The translations under genes and the position numbers were made by a program. 42,619 nucleotides of DNA from Candidatus Anaerobiospirillum merdipullorum. GTDB lineage: Bacteria; Pseudomonadota; Gammaproteobacteria; Enterobacterales; Succinivibrionaceae. The stretch is from assembly GCA_018883895.1 (NCBI GenBank), contig JAHLFG010000039.1:1-42619 (forward strand), given 5' to 3'. Positions within the stretch are counted from its first letter, which is position 1; every line of letters starts with the position of its first letter. Below, one piece after another: positions 5,195 through 18,993 of the stretch. The notes under the pieces are model-generated. The model made no database searches. It saw nothing but the letters and a program-made list of their open reading frames with translations, and had not been told where the DNA came from.

Positions 5195-6391
5195 ATGCTA
5201 CGCTACCATCTTACTTGCAGTATTGCCCTGCGTTATGCCTTTTCGCGTCAGGCCCATAAATTTGCCTTCTTTGTGGCCATCTTAGCTGCCTTAGGCATCG
5301 CCATTGGCGTTAGTGCCTTAATTACCGTCTCTGCCGTCATGCAAGGCCTGCAAGATAGGTTAAAAAGCGCCATTCTCGCCACCACCCCGCATGTGGTGGT
5401 TACCTTAAAGCAAGAGAGCGATCTCAAGACCCTCTTAGAACTTCCGCAAGTAAGTGCCGCCCTGCCCTTTGTGCAAGGCGAGGTCTTATTGCAAAGCCCG
5501 CAGGGTTTGCAACTTGCCACCTTGCAGGGCTATGAACTAGATAAGTTACAGCCAAGTGCAACGTCTCCTACTCTCACCGTTAAAGATCTAGGGCTCCTGA
5601 CGCCCCCGACCGCGCAAAGCTATGCCCTGCTCGTACCGCAAAACTTTATGCTCCAACACAGCCTCGTGCCGGGGATGAAGATCCGCCTTATTGCCACACA
5701 AAATGCCCGTTATACCCCGTTAGGCCTCACCCCCACGCAGCGGCTATTTACCATTGAGCGTCCGGTGGCGCTGCCCTTGCCAGCAGGAACGCCGGTGACC
5801 TTAATTGGCGCCTATGACGATGTGCGCCGCCTGTTGCGCACCAATACCTTAAGCGTGCGTCTTTTTTTACACGATCCTTTTTTAATTGAGGACTTAAGCC
5901 CACGCCTGCAGGCCATGGGCTTTACATTTAGCGATTGGCGCGCCACACAGGGCGACTTTTTTAAGGCCGTGGCCTTAGAGAAATTGTCGATGTCAGTCAT
6001 GCTGTGCCTTATCATTGTCACCGCGGCCTTTAACATCCTCTCGGCGCTTACCATGTTAGTCAGCGCCCGTTTACATGAAATTGCGGTACTCAAGACCTTA
6101 GGTTTAACCCGCGGGAAAATCCTTACCATCTTTATGTGCCAGGGCCTCATTTGCGCCGCTTGCGGCGTTATCTTGGGAATTATCCTTGGTCTGCCCTTGG
6201 CCTTAAACGCGCAAAGTCTGCTGACGCTGTTTAATATCAGCATTATTCAAGGCACCCTGCCGGTGACCTTAAATGTCGGGCAAATTGTGGTAATTGCCTT
6301 AAGTTGCCTGGCTCTTGCGGCATTGTGTACCCTTTATCCAGCCTTAAAGGCCGCCGCCTGTGACCCCTCACGCCATTTGGCTAGTTTATAG
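5195..6391 (+). CDS. lolC: Lipoprotein-releasing ABC transporter, membrane subunit LolC
   Basis: The 398-aa protein has one N-terminal transmembrane helix (about 22-48), a large periplasmic domain (about 50-265), and three C-terminal helices, the FtsX/MacB fold. The N-terminal LRYAFSRQAHKF followed by AALGIAIGVSALITVSAVMQG is typical of LolC/LolE. With LolD and LolE it extracts lipoproteins from the inner membrane and passes them to LolA. Only 9 bp separate it from lolD. The Shine-Dalgarno is weak. Assignment to LolC rather than LolE rests on gene order. Confidence 0.88.
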   Translation: MLRYHLTCSIALRYAFSRQAHKFAFFVAILAALGIAIGVSALITVSAVMQGLQDRLKSAILATTPHVVVTLKQESDLKTLLELPQVSAALPFVQGEVLLQSPQGLQLATLQGYELDKLQPSATSPTLTVKDLGLLTPPTAQSYALLVPQNFMLQHSLVPGMKIRLIATQNARYTPLGLTPTQRLFTIERPVALPLPAGTPVTLIGAYDDVRRLLRTNTLSVRLFLHDPFLIEDLSPRLQAMGFTFSDWRATQGDFFKAVALEKLSMSVMLCLIIVTAAFNILSALTMLVSARLHEIAVLKTLGLTRGKILTIFMCQGLICAACGVILGIILGLPLALNAQSLLTLFNISIIQGTLPVTLNVGQIVVIALSCLALAALCTLYPALKAAACDPSRHLASL

Positions 6392-12822: not shown

Positions 12823-12896
12823 ATAAAGTTTAATTGCTTAAAATTCAAATAATTAAAAAATTTTTTAAAATTTTTATAAAAAAGTTTAACTTTATT

Positions 12897-12924
12897 GGAA
12901 CTTTTTTAGCCCCGCAGGCTCTAA
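12897..12924 (+). promoter_or_regulatory. Sigma-E (RpoE) promoter, copy A
   Basis: GGAACTT (12897-12903), a 16-bp spacer, and TCTAA (12920-12924) match the E. coli RpoE consensus in both boxes and spacing. A/T tracts at about 12850-12895 stand where an UP element would lie. The same arrangement recurs at 17603 and 18870. Confidence 0.75.
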
Positions 12925-12929
12925 GTATC

Positions 12930-13018
12930 AGTTTCGCAAGGAACGCCGAATTTTAGTTTGCTTCTTCTGAATACCAAATCCCATTGCGCCAGGCCCCAGC
13001 AAAGCCTGGCTTTTCTTT
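12930..13018 (+). ncRNA. Sigma-E-dependent small RNA, family copy A
   Basis: The predicted RNA of about 89 nt starts 6 bp after the -10 box. Stem 1 is GTTTC-GCAA-GGAAC (12931-12944), with a U-G wobble where B and C have C-G. Stem 2 is GTTTG / CAAAT (12956-12960 / 12975-12979) with a 14-nt loop. Stem 3 is GCCAGGC / GCCTGGC (12988-12994 / 13004-13010), followed by TTTTCTTT, an intrinsic terminator. No open reading frame of note lies inside. It does not match a named small RNA that I know. Confidence 0.7.
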
Positions 13019-13166: not shown

Positions 13167-13180
13167 TTGTTTAAACAAGT
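13165..13180. promoter_or_regulatory. Palindromic operator for the GntR gene
   Basis: ACTTGTTTAAACAAGT is a perfect 16-bp inverted repeat sharing the ACTTGT half-site with the upstream elements. It begins about 7 bp after the TATACT -10 box, so a bound repressor would cover the transcription start. This suggests self-regulation by the regulator that follows. Confidence 0.6.
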
Positions 13181-13235
13181 TGTAAACTTAGCTCTAAGCT
13201 TATGGCAGATCACCCTTATTTTAAGTAAGAAGCAT

Positions 13236-13961
13236 ATGAGTGAACTTAACGCCCCGCGTCGTACCGGCACTACGCCTAGTAGTTTCTATGTGACCATCGC
13301 ACTGACCTTAAGGCGTGAAATCCTGCAAGGTCTGTGGGATGAGCGGCCTTTTGCCACCGAGCAAGAATTAAGCACCCGCTTCCACGTCACTCGTACCACC
13401 GTGCGCCGGGCATTGGACAGACTCAAAGAAGAAGGCCTTATCATTAAACATCAAGGCAAGCGTCTGCAAATTGCGCTCCAACCCCTAAAGCGTACTTCGT
13501 GGAATTTCAGCTCCTTTTCTGAAAGCATGCGCTCGCGCCACGATACCCCCTATTCGCGCGTGGATGTGGCCCAAATTGAAGAGTTAGCTGACGGCACCTA
13601 TTTTCACTTAGTGCGCACCCGGGGCATCTGTCGCGCCCGCAGCGTGCAGTATCTGACGCGGGAAGATTCTCATCTGCCTTTAAACCTCTTTCCCCATGTC
13701 GAGCGCTTTGATTTTGCCACGCTCTCACTGTATGACATCATGCGCCGGGAATATCACATTTATCCCACGCGTGGCCTGTCACGTTTGACCGCCATTTTAC
13801 CGGATGACAGTTTATGTCGCGATTTTGCCATTACAGCGCAACAACCGCTGCTACAGGCCCATCAGGAAATTTGCGATCAGGAAGGCCGGTTAATTGAGCG
13901 AGTCATCATCACCTATGCCCCAAGTTTGGAAATTTGTATCGCCCGCGATGCTGGACATTAG
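13236..13961 (+). CDS. GntR-family regulator, UTRA (HutC) subfamily
   Basis: The 241-aa protein has an N-terminal winged helix-turn-helix (about residues 15-80; LRREILQGLW, TEQELSTRFHVTRTTVRRALDRLKEEGLI) and a C-terminal UTRA ligand domain (about 95-238). UTRA regulators usually sense small sugar- or nucleoside-type metabolites and repress a neighbouring catabolic operon. The frame stays open from 13167, but that start falls in the operator and gives a non-conserved leader, so the ATG at 13236 is chosen. The gene lies 74 bp before an operon like E. coli yegU-yegV, whose regulator YegW is of the same type. Its ligand is unknown. Confidence 0.85.
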   Translation: MSELNAPRRTGTTPSSFYVTIALTLRREILQGLWDERPFATEQELSTRFHVTRTTVRRALDRLKEEGLIIKHQGKRLQIALQPLKRTSWNFSSFSESMRSRHDTPYSRVDVAQIEELADGTYFHLVRTRGICRARSVQYLTREDSHLPLNLFPHVERFDFATLSLYDIMRREYHIYPTRGLSRLTAILPDDSLCRDFAITAQQPLLQAHQEICDQEGRLIERVIITYAPSLEICIARDAGH

Positions 13962-14035
13962 AAATATCTCAGCACCGCTGGTAGCACACTGCTGATCCTA
14001 ATATTTGATAAGCATATTTTAAGGAGAATATTTAT

Positions 14036-15049
14036 ATGACACAGCGCAATCTTGAGCAACATATCGCCGGAGCTTTGGCCGGCATGGTCTTAGGCGATGC
14101 CTTTGGCGTGCCCGGTGAATTGTGGCCGCGCCAAAAGGTGCGCCAACGTTTTGGGGATATCACCACCTTTTTAGACGGGCCGCAAGATAATATCGTCGCC
14201 TGCTACTTCAAAGCCGGGCACTATACCGACGATAGCGCACAAGCCTTGGTCATCTTGCATGATTTGCTCAAATACGGCCGCGTGCCGGAGGTTAAAATCC
14301 TCGCTCAAGATTTAATTGCCTGGGTAGAGTCGATGAACGGCTTTGAGATAAATCTCTTGGGACCTAGCTCCAAGGCCGCCCTTTTGGCTCACGTTAAAGG
14401 CGAAGACTACACCGTCTACACCAAGACGGCGCTAACCAATGGGGCGGCGATGCGCATTGCCCCGGTAGGCTGCTTTTTCAATCAAGGAGAGGAAGAGAGC
14501 CTTTCTCGTACCGTTGCCAAGGTAAGCGCCGTCACCCATGGCACCGATGTCGCCATTGCCGGCGCCTCGATGGTCGCCGCGGCAGTAGCTGCCTTTTTAC
14601 ATAGTGACGATCGTCAAGCGGCCATCCACGCGGTCAAACAGGCCTATCATGCAGCCATGCCGCTAGGCGAGCCTACATGGGCAGCTGACCTACTAGCCCG
14701 CTTTGAGTTAAGCCTAAAGAAAATTGAGGAGCACCCTAGTGAAGAGCAAATGTCGCTGTGGGTCTATCAAGTCTTAGGCACCGGCACCATGACCTCAGAG
14801 TCAGTCAGTGCCGCTTTGGCCATAGCCTTTTACTGTGATACCCCGCAACAGGCAGCGCACTTATGTGCCAACCTCGGGGGCGATACCGATACCATCGGGG
14901 CGATGGCCTGTGCCATCGTCGGCGCACGTTGTGGCTTAAGTGGTTTTGCCAAAGAGACGATAGCTTATCTTGAAAAGACCAATCAACTTGATTTTAAGGC
15001 CCTAGCTGCCACCATCGTGGCTGCGCGGGATAGTTTTATCAAGGAATAA
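14036..15049 (+). CDS. ADP-ribosylglycohydrolase family protein (YegU-like)
   Basis: The 337-aa protein has the DraG/ARH fold motifs. They are ALAGMVLGDAFGVPGE (about 14-29), the metal-binding YTDDSAQ (about 63-69), and the C-terminal GGDTDTIGAMA (about 281-291). These supply the Asp/Thr ligands of a binuclear Mg2+ site. Family members cleave N-glycosidic bonds to ribose; many bacterial ones act on substrates other than ADP-ribosylated protein. AAGGAGAA precedes the start. It is first in a three-gene run with a sugar kinase and an NCS1 permease, which argues for import and cleavage of a nucleoside-like compound. Confidence 0.87.
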   Translation: MTQRNLEQHIAGALAGMVLGDAFGVPGELWPRQKVRQRFGDITTFLDGPQDNIVACYFKAGHYTDDSAQALVILHDLLKYGRVPEVKILAQDLIAWVESMNGFEINLLGPSSKAALLAHVKGEDYTVYTKTALTNGAAMRIAPVGCFFNQGEEESLSRTVAKVSAVTHGTDVAIAGASMVAAAVAAFLHSDDRQAAIHAVKQAYHAAMPLGEPTWAADLLARFELSLKKIEEHPSEEQMSLWVYQVLGTGTMTSESVSAALAIAFYCDTPQQAAHLCANLGGDTDTIGAMACAIVGARCGLSGFAKETIAYLEKTNQLDFKALAATIVAARDSFIKE

Positions 15050-15068
15050 TCTAAGAGGCCTAAAGCTT

Positions 15069-16046
15069 ATGCAGTTATCATCTCTGCTTACGCGCCTGCA
15101 ACCTAAACGCAAAGTGCTCATCATCGGCTCGGTACTGGCCGATGTCTTGGTTAAAGTGGACACTATGCCGGTATCAGGTGGCGATTTAACCGGACACGAT
15201 CCGCATATTAAAATCGGCGGATGTAGTTTTAATGCCGCCGATGTCTTAGTCAAATTAGGCCTGCCGCTTACCAGCCTATTACCCATCGGGGAAGGACCGT
15301 GGGCACGTACCATCACCGCCGAATTTATGCGCCGCAAGCTCAATCCCTGCATTTTTGAAGGCTGTGGCGATAACGGCTGGTGTTTGACCTTAATTGAGCC
15401 CAATGGCGAGCGCACCTTTATCACCATGCCCGGCATCGAAACGCATTTCCATCCCCAATGGCTGCAGGCCTTGGATATTGCCAGCTACGATCTTATTTAT
15501 CTTTCCGGTTATCAAACTGAAGGAGAGAATGGCGAGGTTATCGTCCAAAGTTTGCAAGCCATGCGGCAAGATGCGCGTCTTATCTATGACCCAGGTCCCC
15601 GTACCCCGTATATATCCCAGCGTTTACTTAACAAACTCGAGGCGCTGCCACTGTTATATGCGGTAAATGAACACGAGGCGCAGCAACTTACCGCTAAAGC
15701 TACCCCCGCGCAAGCTGCCTGGGCTTTGGCGGCACGCACCTGTGGACAGGCGGTGGTTACCTGTGGCGCGGCTGGCGCTATCTGTGTGGACGGGGGCAAA
15801 ATAGAGAAGATCCCGTCCTTTAACATCACCCCCATCGATACCGTAGGCTCAGGCGATGCGCACTCCGGCGGCTTAATGGCGGGGCTTATGTGTAATCTCA
15901 GTCTCAATGAAGCCACGCTTCTGGCCAATGCCTGCGCTGCGTCGGTCACAGCACAGGAAGGAGCGGCTTGTTGTGGCGATCGGACACAATTACGGCACTT
16001 GCCCGGGGCGGAGGCTGAACTTATGCCCACGCCAATTCCCCTCTAA
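15069..16046 (+). CDS. PfkB-family carbohydrate kinase (YegV-like)
   Basis: The 325-aa kinase has the N-terminal IGSVLADVLVKVD strand, the substrate-side GGCSFNAADV (about 50-59), and the C-terminal PfkB signature DTVGSGDAHSGG (about 257-268). The catalytic Asp is about residue 263. Relatives phosphorylate ribose, nucleosides or related sugars. It starts 20 bp after the ARH gene, so the two are in one transcript. Likely role: trapping the sugar released by the glycohydrolase. The true substrate cannot be read from sequence. Confidence 0.88.
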   Translation: MQLSSLLTRLQPKRKVLIIGSVLADVLVKVDTMPVSGGDLTGHDPHIKIGGCSFNAADVLVKLGLPLTSLLPIGEGPWARTITAEFMRRKLNPCIFEGCGDNGWCLTLIEPNGERTFITMPGIETHFHPQWLQALDIASYDLIYLSGYQTEGENGEVIVQSLQAMRQDARLIYDPGPRTPYISQRLLNKLEALPLLYAVNEHEAQQLTAKATPAQAAWALAARTCGQAVVTCGAAGAICVDGGKIEKIPSFNITPIDTVGSGDAHSGGLMAGLMCNLSLNEATLLANACAASVTAQEGAACCGDRTQLRHLPGAEAELMPTPIPL

Positions 16047-16100
16047 AGCGCCATCGGTTATATAATTTTTGGCCTTAAACATCCTTATGCGAGGTAATTT

Positions 16101-17561
16101 ATGACTAGCAAAGCAAGCTCAATTGAGCAAAACGGCATCAACGCCGTGCCGGATGCCGAGCGTTACGGCAAACCTGCCGACCTTTTCCCGGTATGGTTTT
16201 CATGGAATATTTCCATTTTTGGTATCACCTGTGGCATGTATGTGTTCGGCTTGGGCCTCTCGGTTTGGCAGGCCATGGCCGCAGGCGTGCTGGGGTATTT
16301 CCTCTCCTGCTTTTTAGTAGGTGTGCTGGCGGTAGGCTCCGTACGCACCGGCCTACCGACCCTAACCCAATCGCGTTTTTGCTTTGGCACAGACGGCAAT
16401 CGTATCCCGGCTTTCTTTGGTTATACCGCCAATATGGGCTGGAAGATCACCATGCTCTCGATGGCCTCGACGACCTTAGCAGATCTCATGGCCAATCTCT
16501 GCCCGCCGCTTGCCGCCACCCCGGGCATGCCGTCGACCTTTTGTTTGCTCCTGGCCTTTGTCATTGTCATCGTCCTTACCATGGTAGGCGCAGTCTATGG
16601 CTATCAGCTCATCATTAAAGTTGAGCGCTGGATTGCCATCATTACCGGCGTGATGACGGCCATTTACCTGTTCTTCTTTATCCCGCAGATTGATTTTTCG
16701 CAGTTAAATTCCGCGCCGTCAGGCTCGTGGGGCACCTTTATTGGCGGTGTGGTCTTGGCCATGACCATGGTGGGCCTTGGGTTTTTAAACTATGGTGGTG
16801 ACTATTCGCGCTATCTGCCGCGCAATTCAAGCTCCGCCTCAGTGATCTTCTGGACTACCACCGGTATTGCGTTGCCGGTCTCGGTGCTACTTATTTTAGG
16901 TGTGATGCTCTCGGTAGGTAACCCGGAACTTTTAGACAAGGCTGCCCACGAACCCTTAGCGGCCCTGACCGGTATTTTGCCGTTTTGGTTCTATGTACCC
17001 TTCTCCCTTGTCATCATTATCTCCCTGATCTCGGCGGGTATGACCGGTGTATATAGCTCAGGCCTGGCTCTATTGGCTGTCGGCGTGCCGCTCTCGCGTG
17101 CTGCCACCACCCTGTTAAATGCGGTCATCATTGCCTTAGGGTGCTTCTACCTGACCTTTATTTCCGACAGCTTCCTGTCCACCTTCTCATCCTTCTTGGC
17201 TACCATTTCCGTCATCATGGGCTCATGGGGTGCCATTGAAATTGTGGATCTGCTCCGCCAAAAGCGCCTTAACTGGGATGTGACGATGGCCAACGGCTAT
17301 GGAGAGGGCGGGCGTAATTACCGCTGGACAGCAATGGCGTCCTTAATTATCGCCACTATTATTGGCCTGGGAACCATTACCTCGTCCGATCCCTATATTG
17401 CCAAAATTACCTCCTTCTTATTAAGTGATGAAGTAGCCAGCGGTACCTTTGCCAAGGCCAATATCGGCCTGCTTGCGGCAATGATCAGCGCAGCCATCAT
17501 CTACTATGTGCTCACCTTTGTGCTAAAACAGGATGTTCCCCCGGTAAAAAAGTCTAAATAA
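16101..17561 (+). CDS. NCS1 nucleobase/cytosine-type permease
   Basis: The 486-aa protein has about 12 transmembrane segments and belongs to the NCS1 purine/cytosine permease family. DAERYGKPADLFPVWFSWNISI opens the first helix. NYGGDYSRYLPR (about 230-241) is the family marker between helices 6 and 7. Members such as CodB and PucI import cytosine, allantoin or other bases with Na+ or H+. GAGG lies before the ATG, and a TATAAT at 16061-16066 could add an internal promoter. In E. coli the matching cluster has the MFS nucleoside transporter YegT instead. Confidence 0.87.
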   Translation: MTSKASSIEQNGINAVPDAERYGKPADLFPVWFSWNISIFGITCGMYVFGLGLSVWQAMAAGVLGYFLSCFLVGVLAVGSVRTGLPTLTQSRFCFGTDGNRIPAFFGYTANMGWKITMLSMASTTLADLMANLCPPLAATPGMPSTFCLLLAFVIVIVLTMVGAVYGYQLIIKVERWIAIITGVMTAIYLFFFIPQIDFSQLNSAPSGSWGTFIGGVVLAMTMVGLGFLNYGGDYSRYLPRNSSSASVIFWTTTGIALPVSVLLILGVMLSVGNPELLDKAAHEPLAALTGILPFWFYVPFSLVIIISLISAGMTGVYSSGLALLAVGVPLSRAATTLLNAVIIALGCFYLTFISDSFLSTFSSFLATISVIMGSWGAIEIVDLLRQKRLNWDVTMANGYGEGGRNYRWTAMASLIIATIIGLGTITSSDPYIAKITSFLLSDEVASGTFAKANIGLLAAMISAAIIYYVLTFVLKQDVPPVKKSK

Positions 17562-17602
17562 ACCGTAGGTTAAGGCGGGGTAAAAATTTTTTAAAATTTT
17601 TG
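17562..17602. other. A/T tracts and dyad arm upstream of small-RNA promoter B
   Basis: GGCGGGG (17574-17580) is complementary to CCCCGCC (17615-17621). The arms enclose A/T tracts (17582-17601) and the -35 box of the next promoter. No U-run follows, so it is not a clear terminator for the permease. Confidence 0.45.
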
Positions 17603-17630
17603 GGAACTTTTAGGCCCCGCCCTACTCTAA
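17603..17630 (+). promoter_or_regulatory. Sigma-E (RpoE) promoter, copy B
   Basis: GGAACTT (17603-17609), a 16-bp spacer, and TCTAA (17626-17630). The spacer sequence differs from copy A while both boxes are identical, which points to selection on the promoter. Confidence 0.75.
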
Positions 17631-17635
17631 GTATC

Positions 17636-17723
17636 AGTTCCGCAAGGAACGCAGATTTTTTAAGTTTGCTCTGAATTCCAAATCCATTTGCGCCAGGCTC
17701 AAATGAGCCTGGCTTTTTCTTTT
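17636..17723 (+). ncRNA. Sigma-E-dependent small RNA, family copy B
   Basis: The RNA is about 88 nt. Stem 1 is GTTCC-GCAA-GGAAC (17637-17650). Stem 2 is GTTTG / CAAAT (17664-17668 / 17679-17683) with a 10-nt loop, shorter than in A and C by loss of 3-4 nt. Stem 3 is GCCAGGCTC / GAGCCTGGC (17692-17700 / 17705-17713), two base pairs longer than in A, followed by TTTTTCTTTT. Confidence 0.7.
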
Positions 17724-18176
17724 AATACGGCCAGCTATTTATCGCTAAAGATCTAAACACCCCCACCAATCAGGCCACCGCTTAACTTAGCTTAAAAGAG
17801 CGTTCTCCATGCAGTAGCTCAAGCTTCACCGCTATACCTCGTGCCCAACATATGGTGCCGCGGTTAAGCTTTATCCTTAACCATTCTTTCCATGGCGTGG
17901 CCGGCCCCTCAAATAAGCGCCCAGCCGGACAGAATAAAGTTGGTGGGCGGGGATATTAGCGCAAATACTATGGGCAAAATGCCCGCTTAATTTTATATTT
18001 ACCCCATTCATCGCTTGTGGCATCAAGCTTAAATTATTTGACTTTTTAAGCGCAAAAGCAAAATTCAAGCGAATTATCGCATAAATAAGCAACCCGATAG
18101 CACTGAATAAAATGTCTTAAGATCAACATAATTTACGTAATTTAATTTTTTTTTGCTATAGTATTTTTCAGTTACT
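17724..18176. other. Gene-free stretch and CRISPR leader
   Basis: No protein gene is supported. GGGC-AAAAT-GCCC (17972-17984) is a small hairpin. The last about 70 bp are very A/T-rich, with TATAGT at 18157-18162, as expected for an array leader and promoter. The rest shows nothing I recognise. Confidence 0.45.
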
Positions 18177-18379
18177 ATCTGCCCCACACAGGGACGGGAA
18201 ATACTTTAGTTTGAATTAGCAAACGATACGCGTTGTCATCTGCCCCACATAGGGACGGGAAATACTGCCGCTTGATGATAATTTTTTGCTAAAATCACAT
18301 CTGCCCCACACAGGGACGGGAAATACTGCAACGACTCATCAATCTGGTGGAGTTTGAGGATCTGCCCCACACGGGGACG
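18177..18379 (+). CRISPR. Orphan CRISPR-like mini-array, 29-bp repeat, 32-bp spacers
   Basis: Repeats begin at 18177, 18238, 18299 and 18360, a constant 61-bp period. Copies 1 and 3 are identical and copy 2 differs at one base. The repeat begins ATCTGCCCC and ends GGGAAATACT. Copy 4 matches for only about 20 bases, with CCCCACACGGGG restoring a 4-bp stem, and then diverges, like a degenerate terminal repeat. The three spacers (18206-18237, 18267-18298, 18328-18359) are unrelated and each 32 bp. The 29/32 layout is that of type I-E, but no cas gene is in the window. The A/T-rich left flank and decayed right repeat suggest left-to-right transcription. Confidence 0.8.
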
Positions 18380-18869
18380 CATGGATGCTCGGCGTTACCG
18401 CCACAGCAATTGTCGCCGGGCAAAATAAACGTGCCACTTAACCTGCGCAACCGTGACTGCAAATCCTTTAAGCTCGCGTCTGCCCGCCAGGAATAGCGCA
18501 CGGCGCGGACAGGGGTTTCATCCCGGGAGGATCTAAGCTTGATTTGCTGAAATAAGTATGAGTTATCAGCGCCTGAGGATGAGACTTAAATATCTATGGC
18601 GATGCAAGTAAAAGTGTCATTATGACGATGGCACCGGGCCAGGGGAGCGCTTTTAAGGTGCCCCCTTATATCTTTGGCGCTCCGGCAATGCCCGGGCAAG
18701 AGGACGCTTTGGCACCTTGCATAGCTTTCTGTAAAATAAATTATTAAAATTACAGCGTTTTTAATTAAATTGGCGCTCGGGTAGGCTTTATGCCCAGCGC
18801 TTTCCTTAGCCCGGCACGGTTGGATTTGGGCGGTGCGCAAAAATTTTTAAAAAATTTTTTAATTTTTAT
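18380..18869. other. Gene-free stretch between array and small RNA C
   Basis: No supported gene is found. A/T tracts at about 18839-18868 belong to the next promoter. GTGCG (18834-18838) and CGCAC (18888-18892) could pair around it, echoing the larger dyad at copy B. The stretch is otherwise unexplained. Confidence 0.4.
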
Positions 18870-18897
18870 GAAACTTTTTGCTGTGGCCGCACTCTAA
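18870..18897 (+). promoter_or_regulatory. Sigma-E (RpoE) promoter, copy C
   Basis: GAAACTT (18870-18876), a 16-bp spacer, and TCTAA (18893-18897). The -35 box has one change from copies A and B, so this promoter may be weaker. Confidence 0.7.
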
Positions 18898-18902
18898 GTA
18901 TC

Positions 18903-18993
18903 AGTTCCGCAAGGAACGCCGAATTTTTTATTTGCTCTTCTGAATTCCAAATCCCATTGCGCCAGGCTAAAACAGCCTGGCATTTTCTTTTTT
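18903..18993 (+). ncRNA. Sigma-E-dependent small RNA, family copy C
   Basis: The RNA is about 91 nt. Stem 1 is GTTCC-GCAA-GGAAC (18904-18917). Stem 2 is ATTTG / CAAAT (18930-18934 / 18948-18952) with a 13-nt loop; the A-U pair replaces the G-U of A and B. Stem 3 is GCCAGGCT / AGCCTGGC (18961-18968 / 18974-18981), followed by a U-rich tail to 18993. It ends 27 bp before the convergent tilS stop. Confidence 0.7.

Follow-up and report, generated by a model that had tools for sequence, protein, structure and literature searches.

Orphan CRISPR arrays are common, and a foreign origin of the spacers is usual for CRISPR arrays without being strictly defining. Among the described systems closest to the locus considered here, Racrs are defined as expressed repeat mimics that inhibit the cognate effector (PMC10651486), and CreTA (PMC9458426) and CreR elements are defined by an effector that is guided to a toxin or cas promoter and represses it. 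Self-targeting spacers are also on record, making up about 6% of known spacers (PMC8616872). Here, we analysed a 42,619-nucleotide stretch (the window) of contig JAHLFG010000039.1 from Candidatus Anaerobiospirillum merdipullorum (GCA_018883895.1, our genome G000), which holds a four-repeat mini-array at positions 18177-18379. We consider this locus to be, more likely than not, an orphan array with self-derived spacers and with its machinery gone, belonging to a class 1 system (III-A-like or I-E-like) that our searches did not detect in the genome.

The four repeats lie on the forward strand and start at 18177, 18238, 18299 and 18360, each 61 bp from the next, with an exact 12-mer recurring four times at this constant spacing. 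Repeat 1 (18177-18205) and repeat 3 (18299-18327) have the same sequence over 29 nt, ATCTGCCCCACACAGGGACGGGAAATACT, and repeat 2 (18238-18266) differs from it by one base. Repeat 4 (18360-18379), the leader-distal one, keeps 20 nt with one change that creates a perfect CCCC-N4-GGGG stem, in which repeats 1-3 have one broken pair, and is divergent afterwards; 18379, the end coordinate given by an earlier sequence-only reading, is the position where its match ends. Three mutually unrelated spacers of 32 bp each (18206-18237, 18267-18298 and 18328-18359, forward strand) separate the repeats. The period, the spacers and the better stem of the last repeat were thus as the sequence-only reading had described them, and its view of the unit as CRISPR rather than part of a longer non-CRISPR tandem repeat also held, as we found no such longer repeat. 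When the window was resampled 200 times with a first-order Markov model, no resample contained any 9-, 12- or 16-mer in at least three copies at a constant spacing of 45-80. Near-identical repeats, constant spacing and unrelated spacers are accompanied by two further CRISPR traits, a leader adjoining the first repeat and a degenerate last repeat.

The gap that holds the mini-array is 1.46 kb long and is bounded by an NCS1-type permease gene and a tilS-like gene; no Rfam family matched the array. Tests of ten neighbouring proteins recognised no cas gene, and no phage gene or toxin was recognised among the tested neighbours either. An element of about 145 bp occurs three times in the window (12867-13018, 17570-17730 and 18848-18991) and in pairs in genomes G002, G004 and G006; it has a conserved CTCTAAGTATCAGTTCCGCAAGGAACGC core, a strong terminator-like hairpin closes both copies scanned, no Rfam family matched it, and it resembles a small RNA family present in multiple copies. 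Copies of this element flank a cluster at 13167-17561 that encodes a GntR-type regulator, an ADP-ribosylglycohydrolase, a PfkB kinase and the NCS1 permease.

An A+T-rich leader (18109-18176, forward strand) precedes repeat 1, and a homologous block stands before a lone repeat on C58, another contig of this genome. This second locus (C58:14473-14561, L033), located downstream of rpoD, spans the A+T-rich pre-repeat sequence and one repeat core, matches the mini-array at 79% over 89 nt and is an array reduced to one repeat. Because of the leader-like block on C58 and the degenerate fourth repeat, we place the leader on the left. By eye, an extended -10-like TGCTATAGT is present at 18154-18162, and both leaders of this genome carry TGCTATAGT about 14 nt ahead of the repeat, but a sigma-70 consensus scan of the window did not list this leader promoter. 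With a leader model built from the two G000 leaders and two leaders of G016 (uncultured Succinivibrionaceae BRZ_RI__bin27, L133), a member of another genus, only those four loci exceeded 60 bits in 56 family genomes (65.1 bits for the C58 locus), followed by 31.8 bits for an inner repeat of a G016 array and then 26.6; since 90 candidates were scored per genome, this search may have missed loci. Spacer 2 together with repeat 3 resembles the leader together with repeat 1 (25.3 bits with the leader model), so the captured spacer 2 might serve as a promoter within the array.

G016 carries two mini-arrays on one contig (C11, L082), with six cores at 181-489 and two at 5692 and 5754. Like the G000 mini-array, they have the same core, a leader that aligns with the G000 leaders and no adjoining cas genes. 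Unlike it, they comprise six and two repeats at spacings of 60-63 bp, and the six-repeat array lacks clear self spacers (best E 0.39). The spacers of this six-repeat array gave no phage match. The two G016 arrays stand either side of a 1585-aa ORF, which was ruled out as an effector because it is an autotransporter gene. The cas locus of G016 is type I-C, with an unrelated repeat. In both G016 arrays (L082 176-503 and 5691-5770), the outer repeats decay and the CCCC/GGGG hairpin is retained.

Allowing up to two mismatches, the 18-nt core matched in 11 of the 56 family genomes, in array form in G000 only, and backward controls gave similar numbers in the other genomes. Six viral-contig matches to this core were single sites, at about the number that we estimate for chance, and were discarded. 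A scan of genome contigs returned no instance of the strict repeat pattern and 44 stretches with a loose paired core, about 10 of which are real arrays by eye (L131, L133, L134, L139, L147, L152, L154, L160, L173 and L174), the rest being GC-rich or coding repeats. The array of Faecalibacterium longum (L134 5700-6000) has five repeats with GGGGACGGAAAC-type ends, lies near a weakly CARF-like protein and shows TATAGT close before its first repeat.

To assign a subtype, we compared repeats by alignment score against 500 shuffles, and on this repeat comparison the assignment is ambiguous. The III-A arrays of the G037 csm locus (Csm1-Csm4 and Csm6) and of the Oscillospiraceae locus L147 (Csm1 and a RAMP) have the same CCCC-N4-GGGG-ACG hairpin core as the mini-array, in which repeats 1-3 have their one stem pair broken, and the same G/A-rich 3' end. 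The period of the L147 array (59-62 bp) is also like that of the mini-array, whereas that of G037 has a repeat of greater length (about 35 nt) and a period of 68-74 bp. The sequence of repeats 1 and 3 scored 20 against the L147 repeat (reached by 4 of 500 shuffles) and 15 against the G037 repeat (19 of 500), while repeat 4 scored 22 against L147 and 21 against the I-C repeat of G016 (0 of 500 in both cases). The C58 repeat scored 19 against L147 (2 of 500), and the G016 mini-array repeat scored 24 against G037 (1 of 500). Csm RAMP proteins, however, were not found in G000 at 92.6% completeness. The sequence-only reading had called the array type I-E-like, a label that we regard as doubtful and that would require an orphan I-E array read from the minus strand, which we think unlikely. 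The 61-bp period and constant 32-bp spacers do recur in the I-E array of G024, and repeats 1-3 scored 23 against its repeat (0 of 500) on the opposite strand, where the C58 repeat also scored 19 (3 of 500). This likeness is confined to the reverse strand, however, while the leader-like block and the degenerate terminal repeat place the leader on the left; in leader orientation III-A scores better for repeat 4 and equally for the C58 repeat, and cse2 is absent from G000 at its 92.6% completeness. Given a leader on the left, III-A is the better label, with I-E as a less likely alternative. Where the same reading had suggested looking for a cas-linked array in the genome and its relatives, cas linkage of the core was seen in the csm-linked arrays of G037 and L147.

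Our cas searches covered Cas1, Cse2, RAMPs and Cas3. Cse2 was detected in 5 of 59 genomes and RAMPs in 14 of 56, G000 being in neither set and G016 having no RAMP either. No Cas3 match exceeded the cut-off in the five genomes of the genus, and the best match in G000, below the cut-off, is a DEAD-box helicase. Because the G000 assembly (1.95 Mb) is 92.6% complete and in 96 contigs, a cas operon could be absent from it. Cas1 is encoded in 25 of 56 family genomes, and the sole copy in G000 lies on C32, adjoining a Cas12c of 1352 aa (NF033950, 434.7 bits against a cut-off of 250). The orphan status proposed by the sequence-only reading therefore stands, as the neighbours include no recognised cas gene and the only genomic Cas1 belongs to a Cas12c locus with an unrelated repeat.

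This type V-C locus (Cas12c, Cas1) is complete in G000 (L078 9793-15201 and L089 8400-8832), with its leader and array divided between C32 and C54. As assembled, the array has six repeats and five spacers of 17-18 nt at a period of 42-43 bp, and an array of about 43-bp period near Cas1 is found in two of four same-genus relatives (G003 and G004), with Cas12c confirmed in G004. C32 breaks exactly after the first V-C repeat, a hint that strains may differ in their first spacer; as the contig ends precisely on this repeat, either strain variation or a graph break at the V-C array may be responsible. Membership of the mini-array in the resident V-C array is ruled out by the differing repeats and periods (61 versus about 43 bp), the V-C repeat occurring within spacer 3 only, but we retain the idea of cross-talk between the two.

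The sequence-only reading had looked to phages and plasmids for the origin of the spacers, yet for none of the three did we find a convincing match among phage, plasmid or viral sequences, the phage hits being weak throughout, and two are identical wholly or largely to DNA of the genome itself, which it had not foreseen. Spacer 1 (18206-18237) has no convincing source: it gave no match to its own genome at E<=10 and only weak matches to phage and plasmid sequences (best phage match 19 nt, E 0.3), and two exact parts of it had no match in viral contigs. Spacer 2 (18267-18298) is identical to C38:15588-15619 of the same genome (32/32, or 33/33 counting the preceding T, the last repeat base), and the end of this match lies about 37 nt upstream of the probable start codon (ATG) of a YidE/AspT-type transporter gene. 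By eye, the spacer contains TGCTAAAAT, a candidate -10 element for that gene. A match of spacer 2 to LR756504 (96.2%, about 26 nt, E 0.7) was taken as chance, the perfect self-match being stronger. Spacer 3 (18328-18359) consists of 7 nt, GCAACGA, and 25 nt (18335-18359, forward strand) that are an exact copy of the V-C repeat, CTCATCAATCTGGTGGAGTTTGAGG, in sense direction and ending precisely at the spacer edge. The first 7 nt match no spacer end in the assembled V-C array.

Given the share of self-targeting spacers cited above, two self spacers out of three are unusual (about 1% by our own arithmetic), but because self spacers are already known (PMC8616872), they do not disqualify the locus as CRISPR. 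By our own arithmetic, a random self-spacer would hold a full V-C repeat with an expectation of about 2.5e-5 (8 registers x 6 repeats / 1.95 Mb), and the repeat in spacer 3 therefore calls for bias or selection. CRISPR loci are a favoured source for adaptation systems. The sharing of a 25-nt repeat between two loci, and the end of C32 exactly on that repeat, would also suit an assembly chimera at the common V-C repeat, just as a chance or structural tandem repeat would dispense with CRISPR altogether; we judge such explanations very improbable, as none of the 200 resamplings reached the observed pattern and the 61-bp period continues without interruption across spacer 3, where a random mis-join would have disrupted it.

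Based on the sources of spacers 2 and 3, the array could be regulatory, akin to CreTA or CreR, with transcribed guides that would bring a DNA-binding Cas complex to two targets, the promoter region of the transporter gene and the V-C array, and so repress both. Spacer 2 covers the region upstream of the transporter ATG, spacer 3 could address six V-C repeats, and a promoter-like element is seen by eye in both G000 leaders. Such a role is nevertheless unlikely in our view: the Cse2, Cas1, Cas3 and RAMP searches of G000 yielded no cognate effector, the 7 nt of spacer 3 adjoin no V-C repeat in the assembly, the six-repeat array of G016 has no clear self-match, and the leader promoter is missing from the sigma-70 list.

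Alternatively, the leader transcript might bind Cas12c through its solitary V-C repeat, acting either as a sink in the manner of Racrs or as an unusual crRNA that would use the adjoining mini-array repeat, ATCTGCCCCACACGGGG, as its 17-18-nt guide. A decoy role of this kind is possible by analogy with Racrs (PMC10651486), in which solitary repeat units inhibit other subtypes, and it would fit the exact, sense-oriented V-C repeat that terminates at the spacer boundary and the complete Cas12c locus in the same genome. We nonetheless hold it to be improbable. The end alignment would arise by accident about once in eight cases, no phage genes were recognised among the tested neighbours, and V-C and Cas12c are unmentioned in the main text of the Racr paper (PMC10651486). 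Trimming of pre-crRNA by Cas12c2 is described as using the first six bases of the downstream repeat (PMC9522604); none follows here, so that normal crRNA maturation from spacer 3 is unlikely. A cross-type regulator, in which the V-C repeat of the transcript would recruit or titrate Cas12c, the mini-array hairpin repeat would serve as the guide and spacer 2 would address the transporter promoter, seems to us quite improbable; if true, one small RNA would wire two CRISPR types together in one cell.

We return to an orphan class 1 array as the probable explanation. An ordinary class 1 Cas1-Cas2 integrase would have captured spacers from self DNA, with spacer 3 plausibly stemming from the V-C array through breakage or nicking there, and the effector and integrase genes would have been lost or would never have been adjacent to the mini-array. 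The array would then persist as an effector-less orphan, possibly still transcribed, and transcription from the left would put a sense V-C repeat in the spacer-3 RNA. Without its cognate effector, the mini-array should be inert in immunity. Two observations count against a mere relic: four loci in two genera have retained the hairpin core and the leader, a conservation not required of a pure relic, and decay is little advanced, as three repeats are near-identical.

Like the ectopic repeats of CreTA (PMC9458426), those described here are few, degenerate and outside the cas locus, but no toxin gene was seen among the tested neighbours and the searches made found no Cascade in the genome. In the literature searched, we found no spacer with a complete repeat of a different CRISPR type from the same genome, and the V-C repeat inside spacer 3 points to the sampling of one CRISPR locus by the adaptation machinery of another. 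As in Racrs and other solitary repeat units (PMC10651486), there is one lone repeat of a resident CRISPR type; in contrast to these, the V-C repeat here is chromosomal and lies inside the spacer of another array, and with the mini-array one could ask directly whether solitary V-C repeats bind Cas12c or inhibit it.
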